A DNA stretch of 64,000 nucleotides from Cellulosilyticum lentocellum DSM 5427 (lineage in GTDB: Bacteria; Bacillota; Clostridia; Lachnospirales; Cellulosilyticaceae), in NCBI RefSeq assembly GCF_000178835.2, contig NC_015275.1, positions 3,059,001-3,123,000 on the forward strand. Direction: 5' to 3'. Positions within the stretch are counted from its first letter, which is position 1, and every line of letters begins with the position of its first letter. The notes beneath the pieces are model-generated. The model was not told the origin of the DNA and searched no databases. It was given only the letters and a program-made list of their open reading frames with translations. The position numbers and the translations under genes are program-made. Of this stretch, positions 636 through 2,670 are shown in pieces.

Positions 636-764
636 AAATTGAAATTTGTCGGGGAGTGAACTTAGTGCTTCAAAAAAATGTGAACCGGAACAACGGAAGG
701 CACCCATACCCTATCATTTTCTCTCAGACGTACTTCTCATAAACTACAAGACAAATTTCAATTT
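636..764. ncRNA. candidate small structured RNA closed by a 15-bp stem
   Basis: A perfect 15-bp inverted repeat (636-650 AAATTGAAATTTGTC against 750-764) encloses about 100 bases. Inside it GTGC at 665-668 can pair with GCAC at 700-703, extended by CTTC/GAAG, and CCG/CGG closes a smaller loop near 685-696. The size and long closing stem are like small regulatory RNAs such as 6S RNA, but I could not match conserved 6S positions and there is no T-run on either side. The strand is unknown. It does not encode a protein of reasonable length. Confidence 0.35.
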
Positions 765-785
765 ATAGGAGTTATGAATAGCAAA

Positions 786-830
786 AAAAATAGCTTACCA
801 AGTGCTATTTGTACTTGGTAAGCTATTTGG
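786..830 (-). terminator. strong Rho-independent terminator (minus strand)
   Basis: A perfect 16-bp stem (788-803 with 813-828) and a 9-base loop are followed on the minus strand by a run of eight T. It ends the hairpin-rich transcript that comes from 1215 and indicates that this transcript runs on the minus strand. Confidence 0.85.
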
Positions 831-1220
831 GGTTCCAGACTCTTGAAATTTACTTTCATCACTAGCTAAATAGACCTTAAGCAAAGCGCAAAATGGCTCC
901 TCAGCACGTATGCGTTATAGCGTAGTGCCTACTAAAACTAGCTATGAAAGTTCAACCAATGAGTGAGGAGCTCTTAAAAGTCTTGGCCGGTGCACCCTAG
1001 GCTAGGAAGCTAAGACCTTAAGACTCTGGTTTAAAACTTTATTGGGTAATACTAGGTATAAAAACATTGAAAACAACTTATAAGTGGCGCCTTCCTTGCA
1101 GCGCACAAGTGAACATTTTCCTTAAGTCCAGAGGTACCTATAACAATAGATTGAGACTTGGCTGACCCGGTCAGTTCCTCAGGTTGAAGCTGTGGTAATT
1201 ATGCCGTGGGAAGTTATTTA
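829..1220 (-). ncRNA. candidate large structured RNA (about 390 nt) with a pseudoknot
   Basis: Non-coding in all frames, but with dense pairing. One helix pairs 852-859 plus 864-867 with 940-951. A hairpin 905-927 (CAC-TATGC with GCGTA-GTG, one bulge) sits inside it. GCTCCTCA at 896-903 pairs with TGAGGAGC at 964-971 and crosses the first helix, which makes a pseudoknot. A further helix 980-987/1009-1016 encloses the small hairpin 996-1006, and GGTCAG/CTGACC forms a tight hairpin near 1163-1175. The element ends at the strong minus-strand terminator 786-830. Size and pseudoknot recall tmRNA, RNase P or the large ornate bacterial RNAs. The tmRNA tag frame and tRNA-like ends, the RNase P core and the SRP tetraloop domain were not found, so the family is unassigned. 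Confidence 0.5.
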
Positions 1221-1302
1221 TTTTGTTTTTACACTTATATATATGTGGTCAAGTAGTCGAATCCCTAATAAAAATTAATAAAAATAATAGCTACATTTTA
1301 CA

Positions 1303-1353: not shown

Positions 1354-2670
<1,317 letters not shown>

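Follow-up and report, generated by a model that had tools for sequence, protein, structure and literature searches.

The segment downstream of eno in Cellulosilyticum lentocellum appears to belong to an undescribed structured RNA gene family of about forty members

A segment downstream of eno in Cellulosilyticum lentocellum DSM 5427 looks like a single copy of a structured RNA gene, so far undescribed, that this bacterium carries about forty times. It lies in the window, the whole 64,000-nucleotide stretch analyzed (G000:C1:3059001-3123000, within a single 4,714,237-base contig). Comparison of the copies gives good support to its identity as a member of a family of structured RNA genes. For a fuller reading, we set the probability at about one half: the copies would be a noncoding RNA gene family that belongs to a sigma regulon, makes a trans-acting RNP scaffold or protein-sequestering RNA, and was amplified in this lineage.

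The locus and its copies

The predicted noncoding RNA runs on the minus strand from about 1235 to 783 (window coordinates) and is roughly 450 nt long. From promoter to terminator, the gene extends from 1267 to 783. The upstream neighbor (1354–2670, minus strand) is presumably eno; the name is the label of the preliminary description and agrees with the protein by eye. The RNA segment contained short ORFs only. The predicted features of the locus are the following.

1240–1267, minus strand: promoter; TAGGGA at 1267–1262, 15-nt spacer, ACATATA at 1246–1240
1074–1215, minus strand: 5' domain, strongly conserved among copies; helix 1160–1163/1125–1129 and hairpin 1146–1151/1136–1141
1030–1073, minus strand: variable A/U-rich linker joining the 5' and 3' domains
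835–1029, minus strand: 3' domain; P1 1025–1029/835–839, P2 1009–1016/980–987, and a pseudoknotted stem-loop domain
965–971, minus strand: pseudoknot strand 1, RNA GCUCCUC
929–951, minus strand: P3, the outer stem of the pseudoknot domain, 5' strand
896–902, minus strand: pseudoknot strand 2, RNA GAGGAGC
852–873, minus strand: P3, 3' strand
783–828, minus strand: intrinsic terminator; 16-bp stem 788–803/813–828, U-run 783–790
655–767, plus strand: remnant of an arm of R2, a second dispersed repeat that forms a long-inverted-repeat element carrying or flanking other copies

Transcription would be expected to start near 1236–1232. The terminator may act in both directions, given a short T-run (826–828) on its other side.

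The preliminary description had proposed a pseudoknot, a perfect 16-bp terminator on the minus strand, and a structure too rich for a normal spacer. The pseudoknot was found again, with GCTCCTC (896–902) pairing with GAGGAGC (965–971), 903–964 as an eighth pair, and the helix crossing the stem 852–873/929–951. The terminator stem is indeed perfect and is followed by its U-run, just outside the interval 829–1220 to which the RNA had been assigned. Folding of 784–1236 on the minus strand gave −128.2 kcal/mol (z = −3.47), a value equaled by none of 100 shuffles. Compensatory changes, which had been suggested as a check, were present among aligned copies, and with the fold they bear out the view that the segment is no normal spacer. 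Beyond that description, the window segment is a dispersed multicopy gene.

A search of the genome with window positions 780–1260 returned 44 match rows, some of them pieces of one locus, and 40 loci were retrieved with about 2 kb on either side. When 16 long copies were aligned, the common homology ran from about TTATTAGGGA to the terminator, and some subsets shared further flank. A covariance model of the 3' domain (R1, 195 positions) was run over 49 sources, 44 of which were distinct loci of this genome. It matched 38 of the 44 over all 195 positions; 33 of these 38 had been in its training set, and L043, L044, L049, L058, and L078 were outside it. L056 and L059 gave partial matches. L060, L061, L063, and L194 gave no match to R1. 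Judged by its promoter and pseudoknot, L063 is a diverged family member despite this result, and L060 and L194 look like remnants. Deletion variants or remnants of the gene were seen at L052, L053, L055, L060, and L194; some copies are decaying. In 8 of the 38 loci, R1 gave an additional weak match, either to the opposite strand or elsewhere in the locus, so the strand assignment rests on the promoter and terminator, two sequence signals that point in one direction at the RNA gene. L063 (G000:C1:48229) is convergent to the 3' end of a 16S rRNA gene, and the family member L079 (G000:C1:1284401) faces a tRNA cluster.

These counts bear on what kind of RNA this is. A single-copy, divergent housekeeping RNA (tmRNA, RNase P, SRP RNA, or a riboswitch) would have a rich fold, as this one has, and the preliminary description had considered a housekeeping RNA. 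The 38 full 3' domains in one genome and their unusual common promoter speak against it. An Rfam search, also suggested there, matched no known family: neither in the window nor in 11 further loci did any of 4227 Rfam 15 families reach its gathering score within the element. Matches in or touching the element stayed far below gathering (e.g., 24.4 of 54.3 and 28.4 of 55.8 bits), and the Rfam matches in the searched loci were neighbors (rRNA, tRNA, and glmS). A housekeeping RNA thus has almost no probability left, and the part of the earlier reading that stands is a minus-strand RNA that is structured and pseudoknotted and ends in a terminator. The adjacency to eno is incidental, because at most a few copies have the same gene as a neighbor. 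Among the papers listed in searches of the open literature, we found nothing on this RNA family and no transcript evidence for it. To our knowledge, large pseudoknotted bacterial RNAs are few, and we know of no other that occurs at 38 loci under one alternative-sigma-type promoter.

Covariation in the two domains

Comparative support for the structure was stronger than folding support. Alignment A1 comprised 33 three-prime domains; it left out the loci of this genome without an exact promoter (L043, L044, L049, L056, and L058–L061) and the deep members L063, L078, L094, and L095. In A1, 86.1% of cells paired, compared with 80.3 ± 0.5% in shuffles, and none of 500 shuffles reached the observed value. 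Slid controls paired in 30–50% of cells. Both sides had changed in 24 of 47 pairs. These double changes were concentrated in P2 (7/8 pairs) and in the main part of the outer stem 929–951/852–873 (14/17 pairs). Helix 7 was paired in only 72% of cells. By the generic measure for structured RNA, covariation exceeded both the shuffled and the slid controls.

A duplex test, which requires only rough strand limits, was applied to the same stems. Cognate P3 duplexes averaged −20.35 kcal/mol, whereas non-cognate ones averaged −13.67 kcal/mol, a difference reached in 0 of 5000 permutations. For P2, the test was weaker (−11.36 for cognate and −10.64 for non-cognate duplexes; 12/5000 permutations).

The seven pseudoknot pairs were nearly invariant in A1: four never varied and none had changed on both sides. 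Because they hardly vary there, pseudoknot covariation rests on a few deep members. The window strands are GCUCCUC/GAGGAGC. The strands of L063 (GUUCCCUA/UAGGGAAC) and of L094 from the same-genus genome G005 (GCCCCUC/GAGGGGC) had changed on both sides with pairing kept, and those of L078 (ACUCCUC/GAGGAGU) had likewise changed on both sides with pairing kept. With its own partner, the L063 strand scored −13.0 vs −7.4 with the window's partner, and the L094 strand −17.2 vs −8.6. L078 added weak support (−13.2 vs −11.6). The strands of the window and of L079 formed more stable pairs with the partner from L094 than with their respective cognates. Pairing was weak in L057.

The 5' domain (1074–1215) had a mean column identity of 90% over 27 copies (24 distinct rows). 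This alignment left out members in which the domain is absent or too diverged (L052, L053, L055, L057, L079, L086, L063, L078, L094, and L095), as well as copies without an exact promoter. Its helices were paired in 97.9% of cells, compared with 90.4% after shuffling, and two of them had double changes in 6 of 10 pairs. One of five measures, the number of further pair types, was not above shuffles (453/500). The first helix (1160–1163/1125–1129) was broken in L050 and L051.

The loop of P2 was GGUGCACC in 28 of 38 copies and GGUGCGCC in 3; three had other self-complementary strings, and four had none of those sought. We would guess that the RNA might form a dimer through this palindromic loop.

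Promoter, neighbors, and a candidate sigma factor

The pattern TAGGGA-N14-16-ACATATA had 39 exact sites in the genome, and its backwards control had 1. For a longer form with up to 3 mismatches, there were 44 sites vs 5 for the control. By position, 37 of the 44 are at RNA genes or remnants. The other seven are at a DUF1659-DUF2922 operon, a degenerate relic of the operon, a RepA_N-like gene, a position before a tRNA-like sequence, and three further places. Among 43 loci of this genome examined, 35 had the exact promoter TAGGGA-N15-[AG]CATAT. Its spacer was 15 nt in all 35, with 13–17 nt allowed by the search; the search pattern fixes the boxes, which leaves the spacing and the variable spacer as the informative parts. 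Of the eight loci lacking the exact promoter, three had a site within 3 mismatches. At L064 (G000:C1:102096), a tRNA-like sequence is immediately preceded by a promoter-like site, which lies some 220 bp upstream of an RNA copy's own promoter. At L113 (G000:C1:304278-319583), a RepA_N/DnaB_2-like gene and a DUF1659-DUF2922 operon both have the promoter; upstream of them is a defence-like island whose ORFs include, by eye, DNA methyltransferase-like and McrBC-like ones.

At the other end, a terminator was predicted within 130 nt in 34 of 38 copies, with many different stems, and none was detected within that distance in 4. The stems differed among copies outside a young group. The gene on the terminator side was convergent in 26 of 36 loci (two-sided binomial 0.011), a count that left out the four remnants L056 and L059–L061. 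With this arrangement, the RNA runs toward the 3' end of the neighboring gene, as it would if the copies were cis-acting antisense or attenuation elements. However, the neighbors differ between copies, the RNA is predicted to end at its terminator before the gene, and a shared bidirectional terminator explains the bias equally well. Regulation of neighbors in cis is not favored, and we regard it as improbable; the copies probably share, or took over, bidirectional terminators of their neighbors.

Bidirectional-looking terminators and frequent palindromes would also suit an intergenic repeat working as DNA, either as a bidirectional terminator or as a protein-binding palindrome, with no functional RNA. 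Such a repeat appears very improbable, since the promoter is directional and strictly spaced, the pseudoknot strands keep their pairing across about 65 nt, and the two folded domains have a length of about 400 nt.

In relatives, 20 promoter matches were read. Seven precede DUF1659-DUF2922 operons, six precede a conserved protein of about 230–430 aa, and two precede ORF-less genes (L094 and L095). The rest comprised one before an amidase-like ORF (by eye), three inside coding frames, and one without a clear gene. The backwards control also scores in several genomes, and weak matches in those genomes were not used. No promoter match was found in viral contigs.

The ORF-less genes L095 (G001) and L094 (G005), both in same-genus genomes, are terminator-ended and have exact boxes. 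L234 (G006) and L238 (G005) are likewise ORF-less with predicted terminators, and their promoter site has 2 mismatches. Only L094 of these four is known to match R1; L095 gave no match in the R1 scan, and G001 and G006 gave none in a survey of the order. By eye, L095, L234, and L238 appear homologous to the RNA family. L095 and L234 look alike by eye. The genes of G001 and G006 were found by the promoter alone. The G005 gene L094, which the promoter search had already indicated, was matched by R1 without promoter information.

In the survey, R1 matched 4 of 196 genomes of the order, including this one; absence is weak evidence, because up to 13 candidates were scored per genome. Outside this genome, the matches were in G005 (E 8e-7), in G007, Sporanaerobium hydrogeniformans (4e-5 and 0.006), and in G055 (0.006). 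The G055 match sits in apparent coding DNA and was treated as chance. A pattern scan of a genome collection, in which our genome was possibly not included, matched only Sporanaerobium hydrogeniformans. No RNA match was found in plasmids, phages, or E. coli.

A small sigma-70 protein adjoins the DUF1659-DUF2922 operon in G002, G004, and G019 and lies no more than 6 kb from it in G014. Sigma regions 2 and 4 are on one protein of 169–173 aa (tested in two relatives). The sigma factor had matches in 17 of 24 family genomes, many of which are weak and perhaps other sigma factors. DUF1659 and DUF2922 accompany YvrJ elsewhere. From this genomic association, the small sigma factor is a plausible candidate reader of TAGGGA-N15-ACATATA.

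The ortholog in our genome (L155, L208; G000:C1:4133181-4133681) is far from the operon and 54% identical to that of G004. It has one in-frame TAG with the rest of the frame intact, and this strain may accordingly have a silent regulon. The ortholog in G005 is in two pieces, and uninterrupted copies are present in other relatives. A partial site, TAGGGA-N15-ACATA, precedes the sigma gene of our genome and was absent from the pattern-search results. A search with a loose pattern gave no site before the orthologs in six relatives whose upstream sequence was long enough; as the partial site has no counterpart there, we do not claim sigma autoregulation. A gene divergent from the sigma gene seemed ComK-like by eye; Pfam gave no family for it, PF06338 had only sub-threshold matches elsewhere, and the assignment was dropped.

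Amplification and possible function

Across the genome, R2 gave 61 match rows, and inverted pairs were frequent (window 655–767; L025:1660-1975; L260–L270). Its arms are about 270 bp and partly palindromic. Inverted pairs occur also without the RNA; some carry the RNA gene, and others have a short or different spacer, which may itself be structured. The RNA can thus occupy the central spacer of a mobile-like element. Nothing came near the gathering score when R2 was searched against Rfam. Most loci other than those at R2 have little repeat beyond the RNA element. Within about 2 kb of the copies, no transposase-like or other protein recurred beyond a few copies; short ORFs inside repeats and unrelated paralogs did recur.

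The strongest rival to a regulon RNA is built on these repeats. The RNA gene would be the cargo or parasite of a selfish, non-autonomous repeat that acquired a sigma promoter and spreads between genes near terminators with no host benefit, and the structure would benefit the mobility or stability of the repeat itself. R2 arms contain or adjoin at least 11 of 40 loci, this genome has 38 full 3' domains while two relatives have one or two R1 matches apiece, and the deletion variants and remnants are consistent with such spread. Multiple copies and inconsistent gene context are, in the excerpted text of PMC11109978, the criterion for "mobile/repeat sequence candidates." The lack of a recurrent transposase-like protein within about 2 kb of the copies counts against a selfish repeat. 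Diverged copies have compensatory changes and differing terminators, which suggests that the RNA is under selection, and the diverged L094 and RNA-like genes behind the same promoter occur in same-genus genomes. We therefore rate purely selfish amplification as a real but rather unlikely account. It is compatible with a regulon RNA, since an old regulon RNA may have been multiplied by a mobile element.

MITEs can be likened to the RNA family by their dispersal and inconsistent context, and some copies of the family lie inside long inverted repeats. The family shares with the candidates of PMC11109978, as excerpted, its dispersal and its inconsistent gene context. Unlike both, it has its own promoter and terminator, a structure kept by compensatory change, and no recurrent transposase. 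HEARO/omega RNA, group I and II introns, IStrons, ROOL, and GOLLD are large structured RNAs of mobile or multicopy elements. Unlike them, the present family lacks an Rfam match within the element and an ORF that regularly accompanies its copies.

Under the preferred reading, a noncoding RNA family within a sigma regulon, the promoter would be recognized by the small sigma-70 factor whose gene adjoins the DUF1659-DUF2922 operon in relatives. The operon bears the same promoter as the RNA genes. When the sigma factor is active, dozens of RNA genes would fire together, and the cell would be flooded with one structured RNA. Among candidate functions, we infer a role in trans, as an RNP scaffold or a protein-sequestering RNA, with output set by gene number as in sibling sRNAs. 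Multiplication would be lineage-specific, at least partly as cargo of the long-inverted-repeat element. The family appears older than its amplification, because diverged members exist in relatives.

Two known systems invite comparison. Sibling sRNAs are multicopy regulatory RNAs such as CsrB, and like them the family has several homologous genes in one genome and, as proposed here, would act in trans (PMC6262261, in the part available). It differs in its 38 loci, its length of about 450 nt, its conserved pseudoknot, and its single promoter type; sequence relation was checked through Rfam only. The SigO-RsoA regulon of Bacillus subtilis also has a small divergent sigma factor and a very small regulon, according to the available part of PMC8103513. 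Here, one polypeptide has both region 2 and region 4 in the two relatives tested, rather than separate proteins, and most promoter sites in this genome are at a noncoding RNA. A bolder version, in which a sigma factor has one noncoding RNA as its main output by promoter count, the RNA possibly self-assembles through the P2 loop GGUGCACC, and DUF1659/DUF2922 proteins are possible partners, is speculative, and we hold it to be doubtful.

The copies are a natural mutational scan, in which compensatory differences among the paralogs of a single genome already lend support to helices. Relatives that have just one or two members, the species of G005 being an example, lend themselves to a clean genetic test. 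If the reading as a sigma regulon is true, DUF1659 and DUF2922, Pfam families of unknown function, would gain a regulon and a possible RNA partner.
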